Assembly: GCF_001270265.1 (NCBI RefSeq)
Contig: NZ_LGAP01000014.1
Coordinates: forward strand, 62,001 to 126,000
Origin: Ensifer adhaerens
GTDB taxonomy: Bacteria; Pseudomonadota; Alphaproteobacteria; Rhizobiales; Rhizobiaceae
DNA length: 64,000 bases
Direction of reading: 5' to 3'
The notes under the pieces are model-generated. The model did no database searches. It was not told where the DNA came from and saw nothing but the letters and a program-made list of their open reading frames with translations. This document shows positions 22,622-37,013 of the stretch, piece after piece (position 1 is the first letter of the stretch; each line of letters opens with the position of its first letter). The translations under genes and the position numbers were made by a program.

Positions 22622-24820
22622 TTACCATTTCTTGCTGAGCTTCAAGGTCAGCGTCCGGCTTTCGCCATATCCACAAACCGATAGCCCCTGGCACCCCTTC
22701 ACATATTCCTTGTCGAAGAGGTTGGAGACATTGAGCGATGCCGCCCAATCATTCTTCTCGTAACGGATTGCCGCGTCGACCAATGCGGCGGAGGGTACTT
22801 TCCGCGTATTGGCTGCGTCGGCCCAGGATTCACCCTGGTATCTGACGCCGGCACCAACGCTCAGTCCCTCAAGCGCGCCCGAGGGCACGGTGTAGTCGAG
22901 CCATAGCGACGCCTGCGTTTCCGGCACGATGACCGGCGACTTGCCGATCAGGCTGGCGTCGAGTTCTTCGGTAACCTCAAGATCCGTATAGGAAAACGCG
23001 CCGATGACCTTCCAGTCATTGTTGATGTTGACCTTGCCCTCAAGCTCGAAGCCGGTCGACTGGACCTCGCCGAGCTGCGCATTGACGAAGAAGCCGGGCA
23101 CGGGGACCGAGACGTTCTGCTTGGTGATCTGGAACACCGACGCAGTGAACAGGCCGTCGACGAAGGTCGGTTCGTATTTGACGCCGGCTTCATATTGATG
23201 GCCGTCCTCCGGCTGCAGGGCTGCAAGCTTGGCGGGGTTCAGCGGGTCGCTCGGATCGGTCGTGCGCGTTCCGACGAGAGGGTTGAAGAAGGTCGCGACG
23301 CTGACATAGGGCGTCACGCCATTGTCGAACTCATAGGCAAGGCCAGCACGGCCGCTGAGGGCACCGTCGTTCGAATCGAAGCTCGTTCCGACCACCGCTT
23401 TCGAAACCGTATCGACATAGTCGTAGCGGCCGTTGAGGGTGACGAGCCAGCCGCCGCCGAAGCGGATCTGGTCCTGGACGTAGACGCCGACCTGCTGTTG
23501 CCTGACGACCTGGTCGAGATAGACGAAGTTCGGGTTCTGCGGCACGCCGTAAACCGGATCGGTGGCGCTGATCGGCGTTGCGCCGCAACAGGCCTGGATG
23601 TGATCGAGCCGGTAGTACTTGTAGTCGAGGCCAGCCAGGAACGAATGGTTCGCACCGCCGAGGTCGAATTTGTTCTCGGCGCGATTGTCGATCGCAAAGG
23701 TGTCGACCTTGGACGTCGCCTCGAAGCCGATCCGATTGAGCAGATAATCCGGTCCGGTCGGCGCACCGCCCACCCAGCCGAAGGTATAGGGGCCAGCCTC
23801 GTGCTTGTAGAGGTGGCTGTAGCGGGCGTTCTGCGTCAGGCTCCAGCCGCTTTCAAGCTCATGCCTGGCCTCGTAGCCGATCATCTGCTGGACATAGGTG
23901 CCCGTGTCCAGATCCGGTTCGCCATAAAAGGCGTCGCGATCGATCTTGCCGAAGGGCGCATCGACGACCGTGCCGACATAGGGCAGAAAGCCGTTGCCGA
24001 CATGCACCTGGTCGAGGCCCTGCAGAACGCCGTAAACCGTCAGGCTCGTCGCATCGTCCGGGGCGTAGGTGATCTGCGGAATGATGACGCCGCGCAGATC
24101 GTTTGAGAAGTCGGTGTAGGTGTCCCCGCCCGCAACCTTGCCGGTGACGCGGTATCGGATAGTGCCATCGTCGGTCAGCTTGTCGTTGATGTCGAAGCCG
24201 GTGAAGGCATTGCCTTCGCTGTTGATGCCGATCTCCGTGTAATAGAGCGGTTCATCGAGCGGCCGCTTGCTGATCAGGTTGATGATGCCGCCGGGGTTGG
24301 CGCCGCCGTAGAGCACCGAAGCGGGGCCCTTCAGCACCTCGACCCGCTCAAGCATGAAGGGATCGATCTGGAAACCGCCAAAACCAAAGCTGAAGAGCGT
24401 CAGACCGTCGAGGAACACGCCGGTCTGCGTCGCATCGAAGCCGCGGATATAAAACCAGTCCGTATCCGCGTCGGTGCCGAAAGGTTCGGCGGTGACACCA
24501 GGCGTGTAGCGCAAGGCCTCGTCGACCTTGTTGACCACGCCGCGATCGTCGAGTTCATCGCGACCGATGACGGAGACGGATTGCGGGATTTCAGTGATTG
24601 GCGTGGCTGACTTGGAGCCCGTCGTCGTGGCCTTGGCGACGTAACCGTCAACGGGCCCCGTGGCCTCGTCGCGCGCGCCCTGCGCCTGCACTTCGATCTT
24701 TTCGAGTTTCGTGGCGCTGCCATCCTGGGCGACAGCCGCCGTCGACACCAGCAACGCGAAACCGGCGACGCCGCTCGCAAGCAGTTCTCTCAAACGCACA
24801 CTTTCACCATGACGCTGCAT
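22622..24820 (-). CDS. TonB-dependent siderophore receptor (FhuA/FoxA type)
   Basis: Outer-membrane receptor of about 732 residues. A signal peptide (about 1-31, ending STAAVAQ) leads to a plug domain with ITEIPQSVSVIGRDEL, the RGFDATQTGVFLDG block and the strongly conserved VLKGPASVLYGGANPGGIINL. The barrel follows and ends in LKLSKKW with an aromatic C-terminal residue. The pattern matches TIGR01783 ferric-siderophore receptors, closest in feel to ferrichrome/ferrioxamine receptors. I start at ATG 24820, giving a normal signal peptide; the open frame reaches 24961. The gene precedes fhuCDB on the same strand, so all four may respond to iron. Confidence 0.88.
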   Translation of the reverse strand: MQRHGESVRLRELLASGVAGFALLVSTAAVAQDGSATKLEKIEVQAQGARDEATGPVDGYVAKATTTGSKSATPITEIPQSVSVIGRDELDDRGVVNKVDEALRYTPGVTAEPFGTDADTDWFYIRGFDATQTGVFLDGLTLFSFGFGGFQIDPFMLERVEVLKGPASVLYGGANPGGIINLISKRPLDEPLYYTEIGINSEGNAFTGFDINDKLTDDGTIRYRVTGKVAGGDTYTDFSNDLRGVIIPQITYAPDDATSLTVYGVLQGLDQVHVGNGFLPYVGTVVDAPFGKIDRDAFYGEPDLDTGTYVQQMIGYEARHELESGWSLTQNARYSHLYKHEAGPYTFGWVGGAPTGPDYLLNRIGFEATSKVDTFAIDNRAENKFDLGGANHSFLAGLDYKYYRLDHIQACCGATPISATDPVYGVPQNPNFVYLDQVVRQQQVGVYVQDQIRFGGGWLVTLNGRYDYVDTVSKAVVGTSFDSNDGALSGRAGLAYEFDNGVTPYVSVATFFNPLVGTRTTDPSDPLNPAKLAALQPEDGHQYEAGVKYEPTFVDGLFTASVFQITKQNVSVPVPGFFVNAQLGEVQSTGFELEGKVNINNDWKVIGAFSYTDLEVTEELDASLIGKSPVIVPETQASLWLDYTVPSGALEGLSVGAGVRYQGESWADAANTRKVPSAALVDAAIRYEKNDWAASLNVSNLFDKEYVKGCQGLSVCGYGESRTLTLKLSKKW

Positions 24821-24999
24821 CGTATCGTCGCCCCTGCGTGCCGGACCCGCCATCCCCACAGCGTCCGGCCCGGCTTCCTGACTGCTGATAAGATGAGCAT
24901 TTATATCAACTATTAGGGCGAGGCTTGTTTCGATCCCCGAAAGTTGAACACTCTTGGGCAAATATGTGCGGGCAACTGTTCAAAGCCGAAGGCATTTGC

Positions 25000-25884
25000 T
25001 CAGACGAGACGGCTTCTTTTCCAAAGCGCCGGTGTCGTTCCGACCGCCTTGCGGAAGACGCGGGTGAAATGTGCCTGGTCCGAGAAGCCGGTTTCGGCAG
25101 CGATCGCGGTCAGGGACGCTTCATTCTTCAATAGCAGATGCTTTGCCCGCTCTATCCGGGCGTTCGTCTGCCATTGATGCGGCGCCACGCCCGTCGATGC
25201 CTTGAAGGCGTGGCTGAAATGGGACTGCGAAAGCCCGGCCAGGCTCGCCAGTTCCTCAAGCCGGATGTTGCGAACGCTGTTTTCCTCGATGTACTCCACC
25301 GCCCGACGCAGCTGCCAGGACGCGAGCTGGCTGCGCTTGCGCGTGCTTGCACGGTTGAGCTTCATCAGATCGATGAACAGCGCAAGCGTCAGGCCGTCGC
25401 CATAGAGATCGTGGAGAGGCTCAGGATTGAGGCATTCCGAGGCGATCAGCCGGGCGAGCTGGAGAAACCGCTCGTCGTGGAACATCAGCCGTGGCACGTC
25501 GCACCGGTCAGCGTCGAGATCCTCCATCAGCCGGCGGCTGAGGATGTCGATGTTGAAGTGCAGATCGAGATGACGGATATATTTGACATCGACCACATCC
25601 GCCCAGATCTCCATGCCGGCCGGGATGTAGGAGATCGCCTGTTCCCGGTAATTCTGGACCGTGCCGTTTCCCTGTGAAGAGAGCTTGACGTTGCAGCTGC
25701 TTCCGCCCTGCGCATCGAGAACGATGAACATCCGCGGATCATTCGAGACGTAGTAGCCGCCGGCACGCGGGTCGCACTCGACATCCCACACATCGGCAAT
25801 GATCCCGTTCCACTCCCGGCGGTGCAACTCGCCCAGGATCTTGAAACCGGCAATCTTGTTCTGCATCCGCGGCTGAAACGTCAT
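25000..25884 (-). CDS. AraC-family transcriptional regulator of the siderophore locus
   Basis: Regulator of about 294 residues. The C-terminal 100 residues form a double helix-turn-helix: first helix unit NIRLEELASLAGLSQSHFSHAF, second unit SLTAIAAETGFSDQAHFTRVF (described by position: about residues 205-275). The N-terminal part is a ligand-sensing domain of unassigned type. The start is uncertain: ATG 25884 has no good Shine-Dalgarno, while a TTG at 25941 would extend it. Next to a TonB receptor, such regulators commonly sense the cognate ferric siderophore, as PchR, YbtA and RhrA do; that role is inference. Confidence 0.83.
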   Translation of the reverse strand: MTFQPRMQNKIAGFKILGELHRREWNGIIADVWDVECDPRAGGYYVSNDPRMFIVLDAQGGSSCNVKLSSQGNGTVQNYREQAISYIPAGMEIWADVVDVKYIRHLDLHFNIDILSRRLMEDLDADRCDVPRLMFHDERFLQLARLIASECLNPEPLHDLYGDGLTLALFIDLMKLNRASTRKRSQLASWQLRRAVEYIEENSVRNIRLEELASLAGLSQSHFSHAFKASTGVAPHQWQTNARIERAKHLLLKNEASLTAIAAETGFSDQAHFTRVFRKAVGTTPALWKRSRLV

Positions 25885-26019
25885 TATCGCTTTGTCCGTC
25901 TTCGGGACGGCCTGTCTTCCGGACTTTATTCCTTCCTTCAATACTCATCTTTAAACCGCAACGGAAGTCCCCCGCCGTTGCTTTCGGAAAAGGCGCCACC
26001 AAGCGGTCCTGACGTGAAA

Positions 26020-26039
26020 AATCGCGCCGCGGCGCGATT
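26020..26039. terminator. 20-bp perfect palindrome, possible terminator
   Basis: AATCGCGCCGCGGCGCGATT reads the same on both strands. On the minus strand it is followed by TTTC, as in an intrinsic terminator, but no minus-strand gene ends just upstream of it. It lies between the AraC gene start and the small gene at 26134. It may be a terminator left from an earlier gene order or a regulator site. Confidence 0.4.
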
Positions 26040-26133
26040 ATTTCTGGGATTCCACATCAAAGGATCACGCGGACGGTCCCCTGTGCGGTCGATATGGTTA
26101 TAAGGCTTCACTCGAACAGATCAGGAGCCTGCC

Positions 26134-26340
26134 ATGGAAACCGTCGAAATCGCAGACCGCAGCGAATTTGCCCTTTGGGCAATCCAGCGCGCGCAGGAAA
26201 TCGTCGTGACCGAAGGCGCGTCTTTCGCCATGGCGGCGCGCGACATGGACGACACTGCCTTAAGTGCCGCAGCCGCAACCCTCGGCAAAGCCATCAGCGA
26301 GGCCATGCTCGAAGTGTTTGACGGCCTCGTTTCGGACTGA
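26134..26340 (+). CDS. Small acidic helical protein of unknown function
   Basis: A 68-residue protein that I do not recognise. AGGAG lies 7 nt before ATG 26134, and a strong hairpin terminator follows at 26354-26378, so it looks like a real single-gene unit. It is acidic and alanine-rich, with no signal peptide, cysteines or membrane segment, and is predicted to be mainly alpha-helical (two long helices, about 8-40 and 42-65). It lies between the siderophore regulator and the metallo-beta-lactamase gene, with no clear link to either. Confidence 0.65.
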   Translation: METVEIADRSEFALWAIQRAQEIVVTEGASFAMAARDMDDTALSAAAATLGKAISEAMLEVFDGLVSD

Positions 26341-26353
26341 GCCGCCAAAGGCA

Positions 26354-26378
26354 ACGGGCCACGCAAAGTGCGGCCCGT
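26354..26378. terminator. Bidirectional hairpin terminator
   Basis: ACGGGCC (26354-26360) pairs with GGCCCGT (26372-26378) over an 11-nt loop, between the convergent small gene ending at 26340 and the lactamase gene ending at 26384. It is followed by a pyrimidine-rich stretch on the plus strand. Confidence 0.6.
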
Positions 26379-26383
26379 CTCTC

Positions 26384-27244
26384 TCATTGTCTCGCCTTCT
26401 GCCTTGCAAGCTCCTTCTTGAAGGCGGCGCGGGATTTTTCGACGATCTGGCTGAGCAGATCCGGATCGATGAAAGCAACTTTCTCGCCTGCGTCCCGCCG
26501 CGCGGCCCGGCCGAGAACATCGGCAAATTCCGGATGAGCCGGCAGCACCACATCCGCCTTCATAGCCGCCAGCCGATCGAAACTCGTCTCGAAGTCGGCA
26601 ACGATGCCGGGATAGCGCCTGTTGCCGAAGAGCTTGTTGCCGGCGACGGTGACGCTGCAGGGAAAGACCACCTTGAGCGCGCGTCCGGCCTCGGTCACCG
26701 ATGTTGACCAGGTGGTGCAGCCGGGCGTGTGGCCGGGCGTCAGCGTCGCCTTCAGGCTGACGTCTCCAAGTGCCACGACTTCGCCGTCGGCAAGCACATG
26801 GTCGACCTTGACCGCCGGAAACGTCCCGCGCTTATAGGTGGTCTCGCCGTCGTGCAGGCCGTTTTCCAGCGCCCAACGATCCGCGGCGATCGCATAGAGC
26901 TTGGCGCCGCTGTCGCGCTTGATTTGCGCAACGCCGGCGACATGATCGAAATGCGCATGGCTGGTGACGATGATCTTGATATCGGAGAGCTTGAAGCCGA
27001 GCGCCGTGATATTGCTCTCGACTAGGAATGCGGTGCTCTTCAGCGTTCCGTCGAGCAGAATGGCCTGTTTGCCTGATGTGATGAGATAGGCCGCCAGCCC
27101 CTTGGTGCCGACGTAATAGATATTACCGACGACGCGAAATGGCTTCGTCGGCTGCGACCAATCGGCATTGTCGGCTATCGCCGCACTCGCCAGGCATACC
27201 GTCGTGATCGCCGTCGCCAGGGCGCACCGTATCAACTTTCTCAT
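26384..27244 (-). CDS. Subclass B3 metallo-beta-lactamase
   Basis: Zinc hydrolase expected to open beta-lactam rings in the periplasm. From ATG 27244 (GGAGG Shine-Dalgarno 5 nt upstream) the product is 286 residues with a Sec signal peptide (about 1-24, ending AAIAD). Zinc ligands are visible: H96-A-H98-F-D100-H101, H172 in PGHTPGCTTW, and H237 in LPAHPEF. The PCSVTVAGNKLF block is typical of subclass B3. The frame runs back to 27361, but no signal would then be exposed. It lies divergent from a deacetylase gene and carries, 73-112 nt upstream, the 40-nt element also found beside ampR. Whether it is active on clinical beta-lactams is unknown. Confidence 0.88.
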   Translation of the reverse strand: MRKLIRCALATAITTVCLASAAIADNADWSQPTKPFRVVGNIYYVGTKGLAAYLITSGKQAILLDGTLKSTAFLVESNITALGFKLSDIKIIVTSHAHFDHVAGVAQIKRDSGAKLYAIAADRWALENGLHDGETTYKRGTFPAVKVDHVLADGEVVALGDVSLKATLTPGHTPGCTTWSTSVTEAGRALKVVFPCSVTVAGNKLFGNRRYPGIVADFETSFDRLAAMKADVVLPAHPEFADVLGRAARRDAGEKVAFIDPDLLSQIVEKSRAAFKKELARQKARQ

Positions 27245-27316
27245 ACCAGCCTCCGCATCTCGAATTGACGCTTCACGAACCTCGGATGCGTCTTGCCTAA
27301 GCAGCTGTGACACCGT

Positions 27317-27356
27317 CGGCAAACGACGATAATTTGCAGCAGTCATTAGAATAATT
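27317..27356 (-). promoter_or_regulatory. Candidate AmpR site upstream of the metallo-beta-lactamase gene
   Basis: On the minus strand this 40-nt element reads AATT, 3 nt, CTAATG, then CTGCAAAT four bases later, and closes with TTTGCCG. Aligned without gaps to 29534-29573 on the plus strand, 31 of 40 positions are identical. A T-N11-A arrangement typical of LysR-family boxes (element positions 12 and 24) is conserved. It points toward the lactamase gene and ends 73 nt before its start codon, a normal distance for a LysR activator site; TTTGCCG could include the -35 box. Within it and just beyond, ATAATTTGCA is repeated 22 nt apart (27329-27338 and 27351-27360). Confidence 0.55.
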
Positions 27357-27508
27357 TGCATTTCGAGCGGCAGGCAATCTACCCGGCATCAACGGAGACC
27401 ACGGTCTTCCGCGCGACATGACAGCGGCGAGAAAATCTCGCCCATGCAATGCTCCAGCAACCCTTGCGTACGAGGGTCGTTCTCATTTCCATTCGCAGAA
27501 GAGGGACG

Positions 27509-28558
27509 ATGGTGAAGGAAACCGGACTTCACTGCGCCTGCAGCACGCGGCAGAACTTGGCAGGGATATGCGCACGAACGGCCGGCACAATCAGGCGCTG
27601 CATACCGCTTGCTTTCACGCCTTGGATTGCGCTCGTTTTCTTCCTGATCGACGCTCATGCTGAAACCGGCGGCGTCACCCGGGAGAAATCCGTCGCCATC
27701 ACATTCGACGACCTGCCCCACGCCAATGCCGGCGACGACGGAGCGGATCAGCCTTCAGCCCAAAGCATCCAGGATGCGAACGCCCGCATTCTTGCCGCCC
27801 TTGGGGATCACAAGGCACCGGCAATCGGCTTTGTCGTGGAAAGCAAGGCGCGCGCCGTCGGACCGGTTGCAAAGGACATCCTGAAGGATTGGACCGGACC
27901 GCGACTGACGCTCGGCAATCATACCTTTTCGCACGCGGACACCAATACGCTCGACATCGCCGGCATCAAGCGCGAGATCGTTGATGGCGAGAAGACGACG
28001 AGGCGAACACTCAAGGCCGCAGGCAAGGATCTGCGTTTCCTGCGCTTCCCCTATAACCACACCGTCGATACGCCGGAAAAACAGAAGGCGATTGCGGCCC
28101 TTGCGGCGAAGCTTGGTTATACGATTGCCGCCTCCACCATCGACACCTCGAACGATGTCTTCGATCGCGCCTATGAGCGCGCCCTTGCCGAGAATGACAC
28201 GGAAGCCGCCCACCGCATCAGGACGGCCTATCTGATGCACACCCAGCAACAGATCGCCTACTACGCCGATCTCAACGAGCAGGTGCTTGGCTACGAACCG
28301 CCGGCCATCATGTTGCTGCATGTCAACCGGCTGAATGCGGACGCCATCAAGGGGATCCTGTCGCTGTTCGAAGAAAGCGGCCCCGGCTTCATTACGCTCG
28401 AAAAGGCGCAGGCCGATGCCGCCTATCGACGGCCGCTCTCCTATACGACGAAATACGGCCCGATGTGGGGCTATCGCTGGGCGAAGGACAGGAGCGTGCG
28501 TATCGACGGCAGCCTGGAAAGAGAGCCGCCGGAATGGATCGTCAGCTACGGAGAATAG
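27509..28558 (+). CDS. Polysaccharide deacetylase-family protein (NodB homology)
   Basis: Metal-dependent carbohydrate esterase family 4-like protein of about 349 residues. Catalytic elements visible are TFDDLPH (the Asp-Asp pair), the metal-binding GNHTFSH (His-x3-His) and LRFPYNH (arginine/proline motif). A hydrophobic segment ending in DAHAET (about residues 32-53) looks like a late signal peptide or anchor, so the domain is probably periplasmic or exported; the N-terminal extension before it is unusual and the start (ATG 27509 or GTG 27512) is uncertain. Peptidoglycan or exopolysaccharide N-deacetylation is plausible. It diverges from the lactamase gene and converges with ampR. Confidence 0.8.
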   Translation: MVKETGLHCACSTRQNLAGICARTAGTIRRCIPLAFTPWIALVFFLIDAHAETGGVTREKSVAITFDDLPHANAGDDGADQPSAQSIQDANARILAALGDHKAPAIGFVVESKARAVGPVAKDILKDWTGPRLTLGNHTFSHADTNTLDIAGIKREIVDGEKTTRRTLKAAGKDLRFLRFPYNHTVDTPEKQKAIAALAAKLGYTIAASTIDTSNDVFDRAYERALAENDTEAAHRIRTAYLMHTQQQIAYYADLNEQVLGYEPPAIMLLHVNRLNADAIKGILSLFEESGPGFITLEKAQADAAYRRPLSYTTKYGPMWGYRWAKDRSVRIDGSLEREPPEWIVSYGE

Positions 28559-28606
28559 TCGTGCGCCGACCGCTGGCGACACTGTCCCTCGCCGACGCAG
28601 TGCAGC

Positions 28607-29524
28607 CTATGCCGAGTTGCTCGCCTCCGGCTCATGCAATTGAGCAGAGCTGTCTTCCTTCGCCGCCATCAGCCAATCGTGGAAGGCAGACATCGCCAGC
28701 GTCGGCGCGCGCGACTTCAACCGCGTCAGCCAGTAGCTCCCCATCGAGGTATAGACGTCGAACGGCTGGCGTACCGTGCCGTTTGACAGTAGCCGGGAAA
28801 ACATCAACGGAGGGGCCAGAGCAACGCCGATGCCCTGGGCGGCCGCCTCCATCATGGCGAGCGACGAATCGAAGACGACGCCCTTGAGAAGCGGCGCCGG
28901 ATAGGTGATGCCGGCGGCGGCGAACCAGTTGACCCATTCATCCGCCCGGTAGGACCTGAGCAGCGTCTGGCTCAGAAGATCGGCGGGACGGCGCAGCGTA
29001 TCGGCAATCTCAGGAACGCACAGGACCGAAAGCGGCGCCTCGAACAGCCGCGTCGCCTCGATGTTGTGCCAGGAGCCGCTGCCGAAGCGAACGGCGTAGT
29101 CGAGCCCTTCAGCAGCCATGTCGACACGGTTGTTGTTCGTCGACAGCCGGACATCGATGAAGGGGTATTTTTCCTGAAAATCCGCAAGGCGGGGCAACAG
29201 CCAGCCGACAGCAAAGGTGCCGACGGCACCGATCATCAAGACCTCCCTGAGATGGCCGCCCTCGAACCGCTCGAGCATATCGGCCATGCGATCAAAGGAA
29301 TCCTGCAGCACCGGCAGCAACGCCTCGCCCTCGGCGGTGATCATCAGGCCGCGCGGCAGGCGCTTGAACAGCGTCACGGTCAGCCGGCTCTCCAGCAACT
29401 TGACCTGGTGGCTGACAGCAGCCTGCGTCACGCACAGTTCGATCGCCGCGCGGGTAAAGCTCAGATGTCGTGCGGATGCCTCGAAGGCACGAAGCGCATT
29501 GAGAGGGAGATATGGTCTGACCAT
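28607..29524 (-). CDS. ampR: AmpR-type LysR regulator
   Basis: Regulator of 305 residues that senses cell-wall fragments in known members (repressor with UDP-MurNAc-pentapeptide, activator with anhydro-muropeptides). The winged helix-turn-helix begins RPYLPLNALRAFEASARHL, and many blocks of enterobacterial AmpR are recognisable: SFTRAAIELCVTQAAVSHQ, LPVLQDSFDRMADMLERF, AVGTFAVGWLLPRL, STNNNRVDMAAEGLDYAVR, LLRSYRADEW and GSYWLTRL. No class C beta-lactamase gene is adjacent. Instead, genes for a B3 metallo-beta-lactamase and two penicillin-binding proteins lie nearby, both sharing the element described at 29534-29573. The start is ATG 29524. Confidence 0.88.
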   Translation of the reverse strand: MVRPYLPLNALRAFEASARHLSFTRAAIELCVTQAAVSHQVKLLESRLTVTLFKRLPRGLMITAEGEALLPVLQDSFDRMADMLERFEGGHLREVLMIGAVGTFAVGWLLPRLADFQEKYPFIDVRLSTNNNRVDMAAEGLDYAVRFGSGSWHNIEATRLFEAPLSVLCVPEIADTLRRPADLLSQTLLRSYRADEWVNWFAAAGITYPAPLLKGVVFDSSLAMMEAAAQGIGVALAPPLMFSRLLSNGTVRQPFDVYTSMGSYWLTRLKSRAPTLAMSAFHDWLMAAKEDSSAQLHEPEASNSA

Positions 29525-29533
29525 GGATGCCCT

Positions 29534-29573
29534 AATTCAGCTAATGGGTCCTGCAAATAAACGTGGTTTGCCG
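29534..29573 (+). promoter_or_regulatory. Candidate AmpR site between ampR and the PBP operon
   Basis: It starts 10 nt upstream of the ampR ATG and is oriented away from it, toward the penicillin-binding-protein genes. It is identical to the lactamase-side element (27317-27356, minus) at 31 of 40 positions, including AATT, CTAATG, CTGCAAAT and GTTTGCCG blocks at the same spacing. AmpR sites in enterobacteria are likewise placed between ampR and its divergent target and repress ampR itself. The regulator assignment is inferred. Confidence 0.55.
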
Positions 29574-29690
29574 CGGCAGTACAACCGCTTTACGGTGAAC
29601 TCACGTCGGCACCCCGTTTCGTCGGGGCGTGTCCGCCAACGCATAGAGGATCTGGCTCCTCAAACATACGTCTCCGTGGAGGATCCAACC

Positions 29691-29708
29691 ATGTGTCGTC
29701 TCGACTGA
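29691..29708 (+). CDS. Possible five-residue leader peptide (MCRLD)
   Basis: ATG 29691 is followed by four codons and a TGA. GGAGG (29678-29682) lies 8 nt upstream, an ideal ribosome-binding site for such a tiny frame. A 43-bp stem-loop sequence starts 42 nt downstream. The arrangement resembles a leader peptide with attenuator, or it could be chance within a repeated element. Confidence 0.3.
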   Translation: MCRLD

Positions 29709-29750
29709 ACGCCCATAGGCACGTGCCCCACAAATTTCGCACCGCCATAT

Positions 29751-29793
29751 CTGTGACCACCGCAGCCGCGAGCCGCGGCTGCGGTGGTCACAG
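29751..29793. repeat. 43-bp near-perfect palindrome (20-bp arms, 3-nt loop)
   Basis: The arm 29751-29770 (beginning CTGTGACCACC) is perfectly complementary to 29774-29793, around the loop AGC. Outside it, TTTCGC (about 29735-29740) and GCGAAA (about 29803-29808) extend the symmetry imperfectly. No T-run follows, so it is not a classical terminator. Palindromic intergenic repeats of the RIME or REP kind in rhizobia are a possible class. Confidence 0.7.
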
Positions 29794-29976
29794 CCTTTGG
29801 TGGCGAAACGGAGGCGACAGATTGCCCCTGGCTGCATAGACGAAACATCAGGCGCCTGAGCCTGCTCCGCTACCGCGCATCGCCTTCACGCAACAGACCA
29901 TGCATGTCAGCCGCTCCCATCGGGATCGGATGGCGAAGCCGTGTCGTTCGAACCTCGAAAGTCCCCGACATCCATT

Positions 29977-32430
29977 ATGAAGCTCATCGCAAACCTGCTC
30001 GCGACCCTGATCAACCTCGCCACGCTTCTCGGCGTCGCACTGGCATTCTGTGCTGCGGCCCTGACACGAGACCTGCCGGATCATCGGGCGTTGGCAAACT
30101 GGGAGCCGGCGGTCACCACCCGGCTTTACGCCGGTGACGGCGCCATGATCGCGCAATATGCGCGGGAACGCCGGCTGTTCCTGCCGATCGGCGCCATGCC
30201 TGCCCGGCTCAAGCAGGCATTCCTTTCGGCCGAGGACAAGAACTTCTACCTTCATCCCGGCATCGACCTGACGAGCCTTGCCACTGCGCTCTGGTCGAAC
30301 CTTGCCAATTACGGCTCGGGTCGACGGATGATCGGCGGCTCGACGATCACGCAGCAGATCGCCAAGAACTTCCTTTTGTCGTCAGACCGCACGGTGGAGC
30401 GCAAGCTGCGCGAAGCGATCCTGTCGATCCGCATCGATCAGACCTATTCTAAGGACCGGATTCTCGAACTCTATCTCAACGACATCTATCTGGGTCTCGG
30501 CGCCTATGGCGTCGCACAGGCGGCCCTCACCTATTTCGACAAGCCGGTCGGTCAGTTGACGGTGGCCGAAGCCGCCTACCTCGCCGCTCTGCCGAAGGCT
30601 CCGAACAATTATGACCCGTACCGGCATCCGGACCGGGCCGTCGCCCGGCGCGACTGGGTCATCGAACAGATGCGCCGCAACGGCGTCATCGATACCGACG
30701 TTGCGGCGGCAGCGACCGCCTCGCCGCTCGGCACCAAGCCGAAACGACAGGAGACATCCGCCGACAAGACGGACTATTTCACCGAGGATGTGCGCCGCCA
30801 GCTCGGCACCCGCTATGGCGAGTTAGCGCTCTATACCGCCGGGCTTTCGGTGCGCACGACGCTCGATCCGCGGCTGCAACAGGCGGCCATGCAGGCGTTG
30901 CGAAAGGGCCTCGTCGCCTACGATCAGGCGAAGGGATATAGAGGCCCGCTCACCCGCCTGCCCTCCCTTGGTGGATGGCGCCAAGCGCTCGCCAAGCGCC
31001 AGCCGCTCGCGGACGTGCCGGAATGGCAGCTCGCCGTCGTCCTCTCTGCAGCCAAGGATACAGCCGAACTCGGTCTCAGGCCGGTCGTGACCGGTGCCTC
31101 GACAGCCGACGCACCCACGGTCACGATCGACCGCAACGACACAGCCTGGGCTTTGTGCCGGCTCACCGAAGGCAAGCGCCGTTGCGGCTCTTCCCTCGAC
31201 GGCATGCTGTCACCGGGCGATGTCGTCTATGTTGAGAAGTTGGAGGCCGGCCATGTCCTGCGCCAGCCGCCCCAGGTGCAGGGAGCGCTGGTCTCGATGG
31301 ACCCGAACACCGGACGGGTGCTTGCGGTCGCCGGCGGCTTTTCCTACGCGCAATCCGAGTTCAACCGCGCGACCCAAGCCTACCGGCAGCCCGGCTCGTC
31401 GTTCAAGCCGTTCGTCTACGCCGCAGCCCTCGATACCGGATATGCGCCGACCACGCTTGTCATGGACGCGCCGATCGCCATTCCTGATGGTACCGGCAAG
31501 ACATGGCGGCCGAAGAACTACGACGGACGCTTCAGCGGCCCCTCGACCCTGCGCACGGGGCTTGAAAACAGCCGCAATCTGATGACGGTCCGCCTTGCCC
31601 GCCATCTGGGCATGGATCTTGTTGCCGACTACGGCAAGCGCTTCGGCATCTACGACGAGCTTCGCACTTACCTGCCGATGGCGCTCGGCGCCGGTGAAAC
31701 GACCCTGCTCCGGCTCGTTTCCGCCTATGCCGTCATCGCCAACGGCGGCAAGGCCATCACCCCGTCGATGATCGACCGCGTCCAGGATCGATACGGCCGG
31801 ACGATCTACCGACAGGACAGCCGCCAGTGTGCGGACTGCAACGCGCTCGCCTGGGAAAACCAGGAAGAGCCGGTGCTTGCCGACAACCGGGATTATGTGC
31901 TCGACCCGATGACCGCATTCCAGATCACCGCGATGATGCGCGGCGTGGTGGAACGAGGCACCGCCAGAAATGTCGCAACACTCGGCGTCCCGATCGCCGG
32001 CAAGACCGGAACGACCAACGATGAGAAGGACGTCTGGTTCGTGGGCTTCACCCCCAACATCGTCACGGGCGTTTTTCTCGGTTACGACACGCCAAAACCG
32101 ATGGGTTACGGCGAAACCGGCGGCGGGTTGGCGGCACCGATCTTCATCGACTTCATGAAGGTCGCGCTTCAGGGAAAGCCCGCGGCCGAGTTTCACCCGC
32201 CGCCCGGCATGGTTTTCCAGACGGTCGATAAAAAGACGGGCCGGGTGGCTGAGGACGGCGCACCAGGCGCCATCGTCGAGGCCTTCAAGCCGGGGACCGG
32301 TCCCTGCGAGGGCAATTGTACCGTCATCGACGATAACGAGATGGCCGAGTTGCCGGCCGGCGAGGCGGACAAGGGCCTGACACCTCAACTGCGGCAGAAG
32401 CTGCTCAGCAATACCGGCGGGCTCTACTGA
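29977..32430 (+). CDS. Bifunctional class A penicillin-binding protein (PBP1 type)
   Basis: Peptidoglycan glycosyltransferase/transpeptidase of about 817 residues anchored by an N-terminal helix (about 4-28). The GT51 domain shows the catalytic glutamate E86 in LSAEDKNFY and the GGSTITQQIAKNFLL motif. The transpeptidase domain has SSFK with the nucleophile at about S474, and KTGTT in AGKTGTTNDEKDVWF. It ends in a short C-terminal extension with a CEGNC cysteine pair. Start ATG 29977 (MKLIANLL) is preferred; GTG 29941 would add 12 residues. The next gene, another PBP, starts 1 nt after the stop. The position opposite ampR suggests induction by wall damage or beta-lactams. Confidence 0.88.
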   Translation: MKLIANLLATLINLATLLGVALAFCAAALTRDLPDHRALANWEPAVTTRLYAGDGAMIAQYARERRLFLPIGAMPARLKQAFLSAEDKNFYLHPGIDLTSLATALWSNLANYGSGRRMIGGSTITQQIAKNFLLSSDRTVERKLREAILSIRIDQTYSKDRILELYLNDIYLGLGAYGVAQAALTYFDKPVGQLTVAEAAYLAALPKAPNNYDPYRHPDRAVARRDWVIEQMRRNGVIDTDVAAAATASPLGTKPKRQETSADKTDYFTEDVRRQLGTRYGELALYTAGLSVRTTLDPRLQQAAMQALRKGLVAYDQAKGYRGPLTRLPSLGGWRQALAKRQPLADVPEWQLAVVLSAAKDTAELGLRPVVTGASTADAPTVTIDRNDTAWALCRLTEGKRRCGSSLDGMLSPGDVVYVEKLEAGHVLRQPPQVQGALVSMDPNTGRVLAVAGGFSYAQSEFNRATQAYRQPGSSFKPFVYAAALDTGYAPTTLVMDAPIAIPDGTGKTWRPKNYDGRFSGPSTLRTGLENSRNLMTVRLARHLGMDLVADYGKRFGIYDELRTYLPMALGAGETTLLRLVSAYAVIANGGKAITPSMIDRVQDRYGRTIYRQDSRQCADCNALAWENQEEPVLADNRDYVLDPMTAFQITAMMRGVVERGTARNVATLGVPIAGKTGTTNDEKDVWFVGFTPNIVTGVFLGYDTPKPMGYGETGGGLAAPIFIDFMKVALQGKPAAEFHPPPGMVFQTVDKKTGRVAEDGAPGAIVEAFKPGTGPCEGNCTVIDDNEMAELPAGEADKGLTPQLRQKLLSNTGGLY

Positions 32431-32431
32431 A

Positions 32432-34171
32432 ATGGTTCAACGCGTTTCATCGCGCGCGGATCGCCGCAAGCGCATCCTCTTTCTGATCGCCGTCTTTGTC
32501 GTCGTGTTCCTGACGATGCTCGCGCGATTGATCCAGCTGGGCACGGCCGAAATCGAGACCACCGGCTATGTCCCGAAGCGCCCCTCGGTCGGCCGCCCTT
32601 CGATCCTGGATCGGAACGGCAATCTGCTGGCGATCGACGTGCCGAGTTCCGGCGTCTATGCCGAGCCCCGCTTCATCGGCGACGTCGACGAGGCGGTGGA
32701 GAAGCTGACAGCCATCTTCCCCGATCTCGATGCCCGCGAACTGCACCAGCGCCTGAACAGCAAGACGCCCTTCGCCTGGATCAAGCGCCAGGTGACGCCA
32801 GCGCAGGAGCAGGCACTCTGGGATGCCGGCATTCCTGCGGTCGGCTTCCAGCGGGAAAAGCGGCGCGTCTACCCCAACGGCTCGCTCGCGGCCCACGTCC
32901 TCGGCACCGTCGATATCGACAATATTGGTATCGCCGGCATCGAAAAATGGATCGAAAGCCAGGGGTTGGACGTCCTGCGACAGACGGGCATGGATCTCTC
33001 CCACCAGAACCTGCAGCCTGTCACGCTGACGCTCGATATCCGGATCCAGCACGCGCTGCAGATCGAGCTTGCCAAGGCGATCGAGAAGTTCGGGGCAAAG
33101 GCCGGCGCCGGGCTGGTGCTCGATATCACCAATGGAGAAGTGCTGGCACTTGCCTCCGCCCCGGATTTCGACCCCAATAACCCCGCCGATGCGCTGAAGC
33201 CGGACCGTATCAACCGTATTGCCGCCGCCACCTTCGAGATGGGCTCCACCTTCAAGGCGCTTACGACCGCGATGGCGCTCGATTCCGGGCAGTTCACCAT
33301 CCGCTCGGTCATCGATGCCAGCAAGCCGCTGGCCTTCGGCCGGTTTCGCATCCGCGATTATCTCGGCAAATACCGGCCGCTCAGCCTGCCGGAAGCCTTC
33401 ATCTATTCCTCCAACATCTCGATGGCGAAGATGGCAATCGCGCTGGGTCCTGAAAACTTCCGCGCCTTTCTCTCCCGTTTCGGCCAGATGTCGCGACTGA
33501 CGACCGAGCTGCCGGAAAGCGCCCACCCGCAACTACCGCGCTCCTGGGGGCAGATCGACACGGCAACCGCGTCCTACGGCCACGGCATTGCGGTGACGCC
33601 GCTGCAGGCAAGCATTGCGGTTGCCGCGCTCGTCAACGGCGGGCGCCTGATCAGGCCTACCTTGATCAAGGGCTCAGCCGTCGAGGACCGGCTGCTTGCC
33701 ACCGACCTCATCAAGCCCGAAACCGGCGAAGCCATGCGCTTTCTGCTCCGCCTCAATGCCAGGAGCGGGTCGGCACGAAAGGCCGAGGTCAAAGGCTATT
33801 TCATCGGCGGCAAAACCGGCACGGCAGAAAAGGTGGTCGGCGGGCGCTATGCCAAGGATCTCAATCTCACGTCCTTCATGGGCGTCGTGCCGGCCGACAA
33901 TCCGCGTTATCTGCTCCTGACCATTCTGGACGAACCCAAGGGGCTGCCGGAAACCTATGGCTTTCGTACCTCCGGCTGGAATGCGGCCCCGCTCGGCGGT
34001 GCGGTGTTCGAGCGCATCCTGCCGATGATGAACCTGATGCCGTCCTTCGACGTGCGGGACGTGACGTTTCCGTCGATCGTCGCACAACGGGCCTTTGGTT
34101 CGGAGCTGTTTTCCGGCGTGAACCTGCGCGATGCCCCCAGTCATGATACCGCTGTCGAGGAGCCGCTTTGA
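32432..34171 (+). CDS. Class B penicillin-binding protein (FtsI/PBP3-like)
   Basis: Monofunctional transpeptidase of 579 residues with an N-terminal anchor (about 14-34), a dimerisation domain beginning around RPSILDRNGNLLA, and the transpeptidase motifs S272-T-F-K275, S326-S-N328 and K461-T-G-T464. The main ftsI normally sits in the division/cell-wall cluster with murE and mraW, which is not here, so this is probably an accessory copy (PBP3b-like). It is co-transcribed with the PBP1-type gene and followed by a strong hairpin at 34207-34233. A pair of class A and class B enzymes suggests a dedicated synthase couple for stress. Confidence 0.88.
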   Translation: MVQRVSSRADRRKRILFLIAVFVVVFLTMLARLIQLGTAEIETTGYVPKRPSVGRPSILDRNGNLLAIDVPSSGVYAEPRFIGDVDEAVEKLTAIFPDLDARELHQRLNSKTPFAWIKRQVTPAQEQALWDAGIPAVGFQREKRRVYPNGSLAAHVLGTVDIDNIGIAGIEKWIESQGLDVLRQTGMDLSHQNLQPVTLTLDIRIQHALQIELAKAIEKFGAKAGAGLVLDITNGEVLALASAPDFDPNNPADALKPDRINRIAAATFEMGSTFKALTTAMALDSGQFTIRSVIDASKPLAFGRFRIRDYLGKYRPLSLPEAFIYSSNISMAKMAIALGPENFRAFLSRFGQMSRLTTELPESAHPQLPRSWGQIDTATASYGHGIAVTPLQASIAVAALVNGGRLIRPTLIKGSAVEDRLLATDLIKPETGEAMRFLLRLNARSGSARKAEVKGYFIGGKTGTAEKVVGGRYAKDLNLTSFMGVVPADNPRYLLLTILDEPKGLPETYGFRTSGWNAAPLGGAVFERILPMMNLMPSFDVRDVTFPSIVAQRAFGSELFSGVNLRDAPSHDTAVEEPL

Positions 34172-34206
34172 GATTAAGACGGCACTCGCGACCTGCCGAA
34201 TGCATT

Positions 34207-34233
34207 CGCCGAGGGCAAGGTTAGCCCTCGGCG
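34207..34233. terminator. Hairpin terminator after the PBP operon
   Basis: CGCCGAGGGC (34207-34216) and GCCCTCGGCG (34224-34233) are perfectly complementary around a 7-nt loop. It lies between the PBP operon and the convergent nitroreductase gene. No long T-run follows, so it could act on both sides. Confidence 0.6.
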
Positions 34234-34253
34234 TGGTCACTGGTGTCCGCGTG

Positions 34254-34856
34254 TTAAGACCGCTCGAAGTGGCCTTCGGACGAGATCTCCGAAAGGGATT
34301 TCCGTGGGCTCGGCACTTCGCGCTCCCGCAGCCCTTCGGGCAGTTGCGCCTTGTCGCCGATCCTGCCGATGGCGACGGCGGCTTCAACGCGGTAATCGGA
34401 CGGGACGCCAAGGTCGGTCCGCGCCCTGTCATAGTCGAGGCCGGCCATTCCGTGTGCCTGCCAGCCTGAATAGGCGGCCTGCAGCGCGAGCGCACCCCAG
34501 GCGGCGCCGGTGTCGAATGAATGCGTGTAAGAGGGCACTTCCTCGCTGGCGCCCGGTGGCAGCAGCGATGTTTTCGACAGCACGAAGATCAGCGCCGAAG
34601 CGTCCTTGGCCCAGCTCTGGTTGAACGCGTTGAGGATGCCGAACAGCTTGTCCCAATGCTCGGTGCCTCTGCGGGCATAGATGAAATGCCAGGGTTGCGC
34701 GTTATAGGCCGAGGGCGCCCAGCGCGCCGCCTCCAGAATGCCGAACAGTTCGGCTTCGGAGATATCTGCTCCAGCATAGGCGCGTGGCGACCAGCGCTCG
34801 AGGAACAGCGGGTTGATCGGGTGGCCGGCGATACGCGAATTGATTTCGATGGTCAT
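34254..34856 (-). CDS. Nitroreductase-family protein
   Basis: FMN-dependent oxidoreductase of 200 residues. The early RWSPRAYAGADISEAEL and the FMN-binding block AARWAPSAYNAQPWHFIYA are typical, as are the central GAAWGALALQAAYSGWQAHGM and the C-terminal AAVAIGRIG. Nitroaromatics or quinones are usual substrates of the family, but the physiological one is unknown. It stands at the end of a minus-strand series but is separated from the upstream small gene by about 55 nt and may be in its own unit. Confidence 0.85.
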   Translation of the reverse strand: MTIEINSRIAGHPINPLFLERWSPRAYAGADISEAELFGILEAARWAPSAYNAQPWHFIYARRGTEHWDKLFGILNAFNQSWAKDASALIFVLSKTSLLPPGASEEVPSYTHSFDTGAAWGALALQAAYSGWQAHGMAGLDYDRARTDLGVPSDYRVEAAVAIGRIGDKAQLPEGLREREVPSPRKSLSEISSEGHFERS

Positions 34857-34910
34857 GGTTTTCCCGTGTAGTGGCGTTGTTGTCTGTCGCCTTCAGCCGC
34901 AGAGTCGTTT

Positions 34911-35114
34911 TCACCAGCTTTCGTAGCGTTCACGTCGACGCTTGAGATTGGTGATTTCGTCCGAAAGCTCTGCGATGCGGTCTCGAAGTTCGTTCGTCGT
35001 TCCGTCTTCGAAATCATCGATGCCGAAACAATCCCTCGCTTCGTAAAGCTCAAGCTTGCCTTGCAGGACATCTCGGATCGCGCTCAGGCGTTCATATTGC
35101 CGCAGGACACTCAT
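34911..35114 (-). CDS. Small coiled-coil protein of unknown function
   Basis: From ATG 35114 (GAGGTG Shine-Dalgarno) this frame gives 67 residues, charged throughout, with a heptad-like C-terminal half (LRDRIAELSDEITNLKRRRE) that should form a coiled coil. There is a single cysteine and no signal or membrane segment. The longer frame to 35186 adds a basic leader without a ribosome site. I do not recognise the family. It is probably a stand-alone gene, with the 193-nt space upstream as its promoter region. Confidence 0.55.
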   Translation of the reverse strand: MSVLRQYERLSAIRDVLQGKLELYEARDCFGIDDFEDGTTNELRDRIAELSDEITNLKRRRERYESW

Positions 35115-35308
35115 GGCACACCTCGTCAAAAGCTGTTTAGAAATGCGCGAACCACGGAAAGGTTTCGTTCGACTGCTCGGCTTCAAGCACCCTGAAAATT
35201 ATCGACTTAAACAGTAGATTAAAGGAACCCAGGCCCAAAGATCGGGCGAGGGTTGGAAAAGTGATCCGGCGGCGTCGCGCGAGCGCTCGATCTCCGCCCC
35301 CGCCAAGC

Positions 35309-35894
35309 CTACGGCCTCTCGCCTTTCAGGTGCTGTTCCAGAAACGGCAGGTTGTCCTGGCCCCAATAGATCTCGCCGTCATAAACAAACGTCGGGAACC
35401 CGAAGACGCCGTTCTTGACCGCATGATCCCGATCGGAGGCCCATTTCCCGGCAACATCTCCGGCATCTTCCCGTGCAAGCAAGGCACCGCCATCAAAACC
35501 GGCGCGGACCGCCACGGCCTCGCGCACGTTTGGCTGGCCGATGTCCTCGGCACGGACCCAGAAGGCCTCCTGCAGAGCCTCCGTCAAGGCGAGCCAGTCC
35601 TTGCCGTCGAGATAGGCGGCAATCACCAACCGCGACGCAGGGGCGGCCGTCGAGAAGAAGGTTCTTGCCCCGGGCACGGCTCCAGCGTTTCAGGTCGCGC
35701 GTGCCGTACGCGCGTCGCGCCTCTGGCCGGTTGCGCGAGAAGATGCCGCCATTCTCCTCAACCACGGTCGCCAGGTAAGGCTTTATCTCAACGCCGTTCT
35801 GGCGCGCGAGCACGGCAAAGGCTTCAAGCCCGATGAAAGACCAGGGCGAGCCGATCGAGAAGAAGAAGTCGACGCTTTTGGTCACGTGAGACAT
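35309..35894 (-). pseudogene. Frameshifted 2-hydroxychromene-2-carboxylate isomerase-like gene (DsbA/GST-kappa fold)
   Basis: The N-terminal half is read from ATG 35894 (VDFFFSIGSPWSFIGLEAF, then EENGGIFSRNRPEARRAYG, LKRW, GKNLLLDGRP) and the C-terminal half continues in another frame (PASRLVIAAYLDGKDW, EAFWVRAEDIGQP, VFGFPTFVYDGEIYWGQ, LPFLEQHLKG). The switch falls at about 35638-35655. Intact relatives have a few extra residues there, so a short deletion that is not a multiple of three is likely; a sequencing error is the alternative. The gene is last in the long minus-strand operon, 39 nt after the luciferase-like monooxygenase gene. If expressed as is, it would yield only the first frame of 133 residues. 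Confidence 0.78.
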
Positions 35895-35933
35895 GTCCTT
35901 GTATCGTTGTTGTCTGAGCTTGTGGGCCGCGTC

Positions 35934-37013
35934 CTAGGCGGCAGCGGGGTCCGAAGACTGTGCTCGGGCAGCGCCCTCGTTTGCCCGGGCGCCGGGTGGC
36001 GTCCGAGACCATTCAAGCTCCGGTGTGATGCGAGCTACGACATCATCGAGGATCTGACGGTACTCGTCGTGCTCGAACTCGTAGGGCAATTCGAGCCTGA
36101 GTTCGCGGACATGTGGGAGGATCGGGTCAGCAAGCAATCGTTCAAGGATCTGCTCGGACGTGCCGACGAGATCGCGGGCAAACAGCGTTCGCCGCTCGCC
36201 TTGCGGCGTCAGCGTGCGCTCGTGGCGGCCGGCGGCATAGTCGAGATACCGGCGGCGGGTGCTGGCGTCCGCGCCGTCGAGCGGAACGATGACGCGGCCG
36301 AGCGCGACGCGCCTTTCTGCTCCGCCAGCCTGTCGATAGGTTTCGAGTTGACGTGCCTGTGCCTCGAAGAAGTCGTCCGTCTCCTCGCCTGTCGTGACGT
36401 TTCCGATCAGCAGATTGAAGCCGTTCTCGCCAGCCCAACGGGCCGAACGCAGTGAGCCCCCGCCGTACCAGAGCCTGTCGGCCAGTCCCTTGGCATGGGG
36501 TTGCAACCGCGGGCGCTGCGGGCCGAACGGTGTCTTGATGACGGTGTAGTCGTCGCCGAGAAATTCCCCGCGCAGATTTTGCGCAAAACGCAGAACCCGC
36601 TGATGCGAGAAATCGTAGGCAGACCAGTCCCCATCGAAGGCGAGTGGTCCGATGAGATCCACATGCGGCGGGCGTCCCGCACTCAAGCCAACGTTCAGGC
36701 GGCCACGCGACAGGACGTCAACGGTCGAAAGGTCTTCGGCCAGCCGATAGGGATTCTCATAACCGATCGGGATCACCGCCGTGCCGAGCTGAATGCGATC
36801 CGTTCTCTGGGTGGCCGCCGCCAGAAAGGCGGCTGCCGACGAGATGCCGGGTTCCAGATGGCGCTGTCTCACCCAGGCGCTGGCGAAACCGAGTGTCTCA
36901 CCATATTCGAGCAGGCGGAGCGTCTGCTCCAGGCCCGCCAATGGATCGTCGCTCGCATAGTTTCCCGGCGTCAGAAAGCCGATGTGATCGATCGAGATCT
37001 TGTGCTTCGTCAT
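35934..37013 (-). CDS. Luciferase-like (LLM class) flavin-dependent monooxygenase
   Basis: Flavin-dependent monooxygenase of 359 residues with the bacterial-luciferase TIM-barrel pattern: IDHIGFLTPGNYASDDPLAGLEQTLRL near the start, QLGTAVIPIGYENPYRLAEDLSTVDVLSRGRLNVGL at about 72-107 (given by key residues G, T, P, R and L), and LADRLWYGGGSLRSARWAGENG later. It needs reduced FMN from a separate reductase. It follows two solute-binding protein genes in the same operon with a 12-nt gap. The likely role is oxygenation of an organosulfur compound or modified amino acid, inferred from neighbours. Confidence 0.83.
   Translation of the reverse strand: MTKHKISIDHIGFLTPGNYASDDPLAGLEQTLRLLEYGETLGFASAWVRQRHLEPGISSAAAFLAAATQRTDRIQLGTAVIPIGYENPYRLAEDLSTVDVLSRGRLNVGLSAGRPPHVDLIGPLAFDGDWSAYDFSHQRVLRFAQNLRGEFLGDDYTVIKTPFGPQRPRLQPHAKGLADRLWYGGGSLRSARWAGENGFNLLIGNVTTGEETDDFFEAQARQLETYRQAGGAERRVALGRVIVPLDGADASTRRRYLDYAAGRHERTLTPQGERRTLFARDLVGTSEQILERLLADPILPHVRELRLELPYEFEHDEYRQILDDVVARITPELEWSRTPPGARANEGAARAQSSDPAAA

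Follow-up and report, generated by a model that had tools for sequence, protein, structure and literature searches.

Two similar 40-nt elements, E1 and E2, in a 64,000-nt stretch of the Ensifer adhaerens genome (contig NZ_LGAP01000014.1, positions 62,001 to 126,000; hereafter the window) are very probably operators of the LysR-type regulator AmpR. From E2, AmpR would activate a pair of penicillin-binding protein (PBP) genes divergent from its own gene, and from E1 a subclass B3 metallo-β-lactamase (MBL) gene, while the operator of an unlinked class D lactamase gene would belong to the same regulon. AmpR is the textbook sensor that couples cell-wall damage to lactamase induction; a constant neighbour consisting of a pair of penicillin targets would mean that the same signal also replaces or boosts the synthases under attack. 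What the sequence shows directly is the sites themselves, how rare they are in the genome (7.46 Mb in 99 contigs), that they are conserved, and that they are constantly linked to ampR, the PBP genes and lactamases. Genomes, contigs and loci are denoted by G, C and L numbers. The features concerned are:

26384..27244, minus strand: B3 MBL gene, 286 aa, HAHFDH motif, first base of the ATG at 27244
27317..27356, minus strand: E1, predicted AmpR operator of the B3 lactamase; 49.1 bits against the full matrix (see below; E1 outside its training set)
27323-27318 and 27300-27295, minus strand: boxes of E1, −35-like TTTGCC and, after 17 nt, −10-like TTAGGC
28607..29524, minus strand: ampR, 305 aa, matching PDB 5mmh
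29534..29573, plus strand: E2, predicted AmpR operator in the ampR/PBP gap; 45.2 bits (training set including genus sites)
29567-29572 and 29590-29595, plus strand: boxes of E2, TTTGCC and −10-like TTACGG
29977..32430, plus strand: AmpR-linked class A PBP gene (PBP1a type), 817 aa; TIGR02074, 625 bits against a cut-off of 509
32432..34171, plus strand: AmpR-linked class B PBP gene (FtsI/PBP3-like), 579 aa; PF00905 and PF03717
G000:C27:41005-41041, minus strand: third operator, before the unlinked class D lactamase gene (locus L210); 32.8 bits in the leave-genus-out matrix

Similarity of E1 and E2 exceeds chance

E1 and E2 match at 31 of 40 positions without gaps, and the blocks named in an earlier note on this DNA are equally spaced in both, as it had claimed. 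The gene coordinates likewise agree with the orientation given there, E1 facing the lactamase and E2 facing away from ampR toward the PBP genes. The spacing of 73 nt that it stated between E1 and the lactamase has to be corrected to 72 nt between E1 and the ATG at 27244. When all 40-mers of the window are compared with each other on both strands, 18 clusters arise at a level of at least 30/40, one of them being the E1/E2 pair; the other 17, judged from their coordinates and not annotated individually, appear to be local palindromes or repeats within coding sequence. The pattern YTWATGNNTNNNGCNARWWAWCRTSGTTTG, allowed up to three mismatches, occurs twice in the window and never in 100 shuffles of it. 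Across the 7.46 Mb genome it again occurs twice, both times without a mismatch, compared with zero occurrences of the reversed control pattern. The likeness of E1 and E2 thus exceeds chance. Since such consensus patterns were composed after both sites had been viewed, a matrix was trained without E1 and E2, and this leave-genus-out matrix provides the independent test.

AmpR genes of many genera are preceded by the same site

The regulator encoded between the two elements has the helix-turn-helix and effector domains of the LysR family (PF00126 and PF03466), and its effector domain matches that of Pseudomonas aeruginosa AmpR (5mmh) with an E value of 5e-92. G102, T103, S221, and Y264 are identical in residue and numbering to 3kos. 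T103, S221, and Y264, which we take to be ligand-contact residues, are unchanged here, whereas the same three positions are changed in the 3kot chain. Judged by AmpR, the closest named relative is Ensifer sp. LC163 (99% identity).

We fetched 80 AmpR loci, among others from Rhizobiales, Azospirillum, Pseudomonas, Halomonas, Litchfieldella, and Hahella records. A site built in the same way precedes ampR in 75 of them, at 7-21 nt (mostly 9-12 nt) from the start codon; the outer end of E2 lies 9 nt from it. The full matrix of 58 distinct sites gives the consensus AATTtatcTaATGgCTcncgCnAgATATCgTCGTTTG with 43.9 bits. For the leave-genus-out matrix, the Ensifer loci L005-L014 and the PBP-linked loci L030 and L049 were dropped, leaving 50 distinct ampR upstream sites; here, E1 scores 47.3, E2 35.3, and the class D site 32.8 bits. 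Among 2,148,832 positions scanned with this matrix (the window plus the 80 loci), 83 exceed 12 bits, and all 83 are sites upstream of ampR (one of them displaced) or of an MBL gene. Moreover, the AmpR site of Citrobacter freundii is quoted as TCTGCTGCAAATTT (PMC3315558), and E1 contains CTGCTGCAAATT, which agrees with it at 12 of 14 positions and is the sole 12-position match in the window. A literature search of open-licence papers for a variant of the AmpR motif found nothing.

A family-wide scan of 297 genomes with up to two mismatches yields 50 sites in 40 genomes, ten of them in five genomes of the genus. All 40 extra-genus sites were fetched, and 38 precede a lactamase gene (class C, 15; class D, 13; class A, 8; class B3, 2), while an AmpR of at least 57% identity adjoins 28 of the 40. 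One 37-nt site is carried by lactamase genes of four classes, some linked to ampR and others unlinked. The binding-site pair proposed in the earlier note is supported, since it agrees in sequence, place, and orientation with the sites that precede ampR in 75 of 80 AmpR loci, and further by the lactamases behind 38 of 40 extra-genus sites. This comparative evidence supports E1 and E2 as AmpR operators.

The two extra-genus sites without a lactamase are candidates for other targets: L242 lies beside ampR with an oxidoreductase-like open reading frame (ORF) on its far side, and L243 has neither ampR nor lactamase in its stretch.

A lactamase site apart from the ampR-linked site also occurs in G147 (L099/L227 with L242), G219 (L251 with L252), G263 (L225 with L241), and G273 (L253 with L254). 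Scattered AmpR sites are therefore not peculiar to the genus. At the 80 loci, the divergent neighbours of ampR are class D-like in 24 cases, class C-like in 21, a PBP pair in 12, and class A-like in nine; five loci have no divergent ORF and nine have odd or out-of-frame ORFs. Representatives of the class D and class A clusters exceed NCBIfam cut-offs, and class C was assigned by likeness, because one member and a confirmed AmpC match the same genes. On this evidence, the PBP pair appears to be an AmpR target nearly peculiar to the genus.

The PBP site is constant while the lactamase site varies

Beyond the two sites of the earlier note, the genome has a third, at the unlinked class D lactamase gene. 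A broader pattern, composed when this site was already known, matches exactly three places in the 7.46 Mb genome, namely those of the MBL gene, the ampR/PBP gap, and the class D gene. All three match without a mismatch, no other place matches at one to three mismatches, and the control gives zero. The class D protein reaches 351 bits with NF000270 (cut-off 280); its best model is the OXA-42 family, below the cut-off of that model. Outside the genus, relatives of this gene (61-66% identical) stand directly beside ampR (L224, L226, L241, L252, and L254), so the gene seems to have brought its operator along. AmpR would thus target a β-lactamase here only in an extended sense, the site being carried by the MBL gene (E1) and the class D gene on C27 and the divergent neighbour being the PBP operon.

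Across the genus, the order ampR-operator-PBP1 is found in all 16 genomes. A separate site precedes a B3 lactamase gene in seven of them (G000, G299, G301, G302, G305, G270, and G307), an ampC gene on a different contig from ampR in seven others (G300, G071, G304, G306, G216, G297, and G303), and a class D lactamase gene in four (G000, G299, G302, and G270), the AmpC and class D counts comprising genes found through their sites. No genome belongs to both the MBL and the AmpC set. G298 and G154 show the PBP site alone; their matches at three mismatches were rejected as AmpR targets, L128 giving no matrix match and L135 preceding another LysR gene. The identical seven genomes emerge from a protein search for the MBL, so that the site is present at 7/7 MBL genes, and each of these genomes has both sites. 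The similarity is thus kept in the relatives that have both loci, the condition on which the earlier note had made its proposal depend. The predicted PBP target is constant genus-wide, while the lactamase varies.

E1 is a conserved footprint upstream of the B3 lactamase gene

The MBL protein scores 333 bits with NF033105 (cut-off 240) and matches PDB 8u00 with an E value of 2e-83. Its zinc motif HxHxDH is present, and it is predicted to hydrolyse β-lactams. In eight aligned MBL upstream regions (seven distinct), 82.5% of the columns within the element are invariant compared with 24% elsewhere, gapped columns being counted as variable. E1 forms a sharp conserved footprint in these regions. A family search at E ≤ 1e-60 adds five MBL homologues (58-64% identical) from other genera, and a site of 26-53 bits lies upstream of all five. 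The ampR gene is directly divergent from the MBL homologue in three of the five; L099 and L102 have no close AmpR in the stretch, and for G147, one of these cases, AmpR is located on another contig (L242).

The linked PBP1 sequences form a separate clade, and the PBP leader is long

The same genome encodes, on contig C1, a PBP1a-like paralogue sharing 57% identity with the linked PBP1 and, on contig C9, an FtsI-like protein sharing 47% with the linked class B PBP; in total, it has nine transpeptidase-domain matches, one of them being the class D lactamase. A PBP1 match occurs in 382 of 394 genomes, from which 30 loci were fetched and examined for a PBP-linked ampR. The link is also found in five extra loci, L030, L049, and L148-L150. 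In a tree with 38 distinct rows out of 40, 17 linked PBP1 sequences group together in one fully supported, long-stemmed clade, distinct from 20 PBP1a sequences regarded as housekeeping. This clade includes L030 and L049 from other Rhizobiales as well as L148-L150 from other genera, where AmpR is 57-59% identical.

The PBP1a motifs are intact (glycosyltransferase EDxxFxxHxG; SxxK, SxN, and KTG), and the catalytic motifs of the 17 linked and the 20 other PBP1a sequences do not differ in kind. Analogously, the linked class B PBP retains SxxK, SSN, and KTGT, as does the FtsI-like protein of the same genome. Active-site motifs were therefore set aside as a sign of low drug affinity, and these intact, ordinary motifs give no sequence sign of it.

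Within the gap between ampR and the PBP genes, the operator and the −10-like TTTACGGTGA are among the best conserved blocks, most of the remainder being poorly conserved. At the usual spacing, TTTACGGTGA shows little or no variation across 11 Ensifer-type upstream regions. The earlier note had given the elements their own −35 element. This is plausible in so far as TTTG never varies and is followed, 17 nt on, by a −10-like block, but the scan for sigma-70 promoters described below found none. Scanning the same interval for terminators (27200-30050) gives four terminator-like sites, compared with 2.9 expected. An Rfam scan of positions 24000-36000 gives five matches, all far below gathering scores, three of them being microRNA models on a palindrome near 29751.

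One further feature of the leader is conserved:

29691..29708, plus strand: micro-ORF MCRLD*, behind GGAGGA, with a counterpart in 16/16 genus genomes

In all 16, the micro-ORF starts 107-120 nt past the TTTG of the operator, and GGAG, GAGG, or AGGA precedes it in 12. Its forms are MCRL[DRNS]* (six genomes), MCRPI* (one), MRRF[ITAN]WP* (seven), and longer readings (two). Within each group, changes in codons 2, 3, and 7 are synonymous and those in codon 4 mostly so, in a comparison between close relatives whose search pattern fixes part of codons 1-3. The micro-ORF is possibly a leader peptide. Downstream of it, a near-perfect palindrome at 29751-29796 has no T run behind it; it is partly alike in the nearest relative and is not seen in the other aligned upstream regions.

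Points against AmpR control and alternative explanations

Several observations weigh against control of these genes by AmpR through E1 and E2. No site was found in four of the 80 AmpR loci (L023, L029, L063, and L064), and it is displaced in L054. With the leave-genus-out matrix, E2-type sites of the genus reach only 27-37 bits. Further, three PBP-linked AmpR loci of other genera (L148-L150) reach only 19-24 bits with the full matrix, and an unrelated LysR gene has a best site of 19.4 bits with the leave-genus-out matrix, not the full one; because the former barely exceed the latter, these three sites rest on position. E2 agrees with the C. freundii site at 9 of 14 positions, a score shared by 171 window positions and exceeded by 27, and we rejected this 14-mer on its own as a search motif, since it is too short to single out E2. 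Two of the 40 extra-genus sites, L242 and L243, lack a lactamase. The PBP leader of about 400 nt is long for a direct promoter, a scan for sigma-70 consensus promoters at 27200-30050 found none, and further PBP control is possible because the leader carries the micro-ORF and the palindrome. Muropeptides reach AmpR in known systems through import and recycling, which involve AmpG, NagZ, and AmpD; here, the match to the model of the muropeptide permease AmpG is 135.8 bits, below the cut-off of 350. Alphaproteobacteria may differ in muropeptide import, according to a Caulobacter study (PMC13046382).

The strongest competing explanation is that E2 serves the autoregulation of ampR only, the PBP genes using their own downstream promoter and not being AmpR targets, which would leave E1 as the sole working target site. 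We consider this unlikely. The short distance from E2 to the ampR start speaks in its favour, as do the gap of about 400 nt to the PBP genes, which differs in length among relatives (in 12 loci, the longest PBP ORF lies 127-448 nt from ampR), the outcome of the sigma-70 scan, and L242, an ampR-linked site of another genus with neither lactamase nor PBP on its far side. However, E2 agrees in orientation and place with ampR-linked sites that have a lactamase on the far side, and the −10-like TTTACGGTGA is kept in 11 Ensifer-type upstream regions, in a gap that is otherwise poorly conserved save for the micro-ORF start. The link between ampR and the PBP genes, moreover, holds in 16/16 genus genomes and five further loci, with the linked PBP1 sequences in one clade.

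It is very unlikely that E1 and E2 instead belong to a different LysR-type regulator within the GcvA/AmpR group. The genome has 105 LysR-like matches, and eight of 16 genus genomes encode a regulator with 32-34% identity to AmpR whose own gene is preceded by a somewhat similar sequence; this site, however, is different (CTCATCTATCGGCTGAGAAATC) and scores below 20 bits, whereas the extended site precedes ampR orthologues of alpha- and gammaproteobacteria and four lactamase classes. Least credible of all, to the point of being nearly negligible, is a likeness left over from a promoter duplication, with one of the two places having no present function. The 31/40 agreement of two elements 2.2 kb apart could be read in this way, but E1 is not merely a copy of E2, because it scores higher than E2 against extra-genus sites. 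Both sites are, in addition, present in all seven MBL-bearing genus genomes while the MBL flanks diverge, and MBL homologues in five other genomes possess sites of their own.

Proposed mechanism and relation to known systems

AmpR bound to UDP-MurNAc-pentapeptide represses, and AmpR bound to anhydro-muropeptides activates (PMC9238390, PMC13046382). For the Ensifer locus, we infer AmpR binding, control by muropeptides, and induction of the PBPs and lactamases from the sequence comparison. AmpR would be held off by the cell-wall precursor until β-lactam attack lets cell-wall fragments build up and switch it on. Bound at E2, it would then raise the auxiliary synthase pair, a class A PBP1a-like and a class B PBP3-like enzyme, and bound at E1 the B3 lactamase, while the third operator would bring in the unlinked class D lactamase. 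Two lactamases and a reserve pair of synthases would thereby rise on one signal. Since E2 ends so close to the ampR start codon, AmpR most likely keeps its own production in check as well.

This arrangement resembles the ampR-ampC systems of Citrobacter, P. aeruginosa, and Agrobacterium tumefaciens in its ligand-pocket residues, in the operator beside ampR, and in having a divergent target. The divergent target is a lactamase in those systems; here it is one class A and one class B PBP, and the lactamase genes, each with its own site, are separate from it. For the comparison with Stenotrophomonas maltophilia, L1 is a subclass B3 and L2 a class A lactamase. One AmpR is required for both (PMC5574705); unlike here, the sections of that paper at hand name no PBP operon among its targets. 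In A. tumefaciens, inducible ampicillin resistance requires AmpR (PMC9238390). As proposed here, the reach of P. aeruginosa AmpR goes beyond ampC, and the PBP gene mrcB rises 3.5-fold, among the genes affected only with β-lactam present, although no AmpR site beside a PBP operon is described in the available sections (PMC3315558). The main text of a P. aeruginosa AmpR ChIP-Seq study contains neither "PBP" nor "penicillin-binding" (PMC3902932). The Stenotrophomonas L1/L2 regulon and the β-lactam-dependent rise of mrcB are the closest precedents. A literature search of open-licence papers turned up no divergent ampR-PBP unit. The Ensifer arrangement would be an AmpR regulon whose PBP target stays the same while its lactamases change.

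In Vibrio cholerae, which has the WigKR system, the genes for PBP1A and PBP1B are expressed more strongly under penicillin (PMC6863773). WigKR differs in being a two-component system, an unrelated regulator, and in acting on major PBPs. Staphylococci have an inducible PBP2a, with mecA under MecR1/BlaR1. If the PBPs described here were drug-tolerant, PBP2a would be the nearest functional parallel, being a substitute PBP induced together with a lactamase by one signal, albeit with a different regulator and different enzymes, and with PBP1 catalytic motifs that are ordinary in Ensifer. A scheme of this kind, in which AmpR induces a β-lactam-tolerant substitute pair of PBP1a and PBP3 as its constant target in Ensifer while exchangeable lactamases, acquired along with operators of their own, clear the drug and a leader peptide adds a second control of the PBPs, is conceivable but rather doubtful. 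If true, wall synthesis would continue during drug clearance, and the regulon would be a muropeptide-sensing Gram-negative counterpart of inducible PBP2a.

In this soil bacterium, a single cell-wall-damage signal may raise both lines of defence. With one ampR and three sites found, the locus would be a simple genetic system for target-side rescue together with drug destruction in Gram-negatives, and it illustrates how four lactamase classes can share one regulator via one 37-nt site.

Neighbouring gene and further observations

In L054, a Phyllobacterium record, ampR is separated from its operator by an inverted-repeat stretch at about 5790-5990, and the operator is some 165 nt farther away than usual. 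The LysR regulator with 32-34% identity to AmpR has a related but different site before its own gene at L189, L195, L197, and L205-L209, for example CTCATCTATCGGCTGAGAAATCACTCTTTG.

Between the lactamase unit and the ampR/PBP unit of the window lies one further gene:

27509..28558, plus strand: polysaccharide deacetylase gene (PF01522)

Its upstream region, at 27377-27508, belongs to the gap that contains E1 and is shared with the lactamase gene, and the deacetylase may be a further gene affected by AmpR. It adjoins the MBL gene in six of the seven genus genomes that have one. In the exception, G305 (L005), the deacetylase gene is absent from this place, and ampR and the MBL gene follow each other on one strand.

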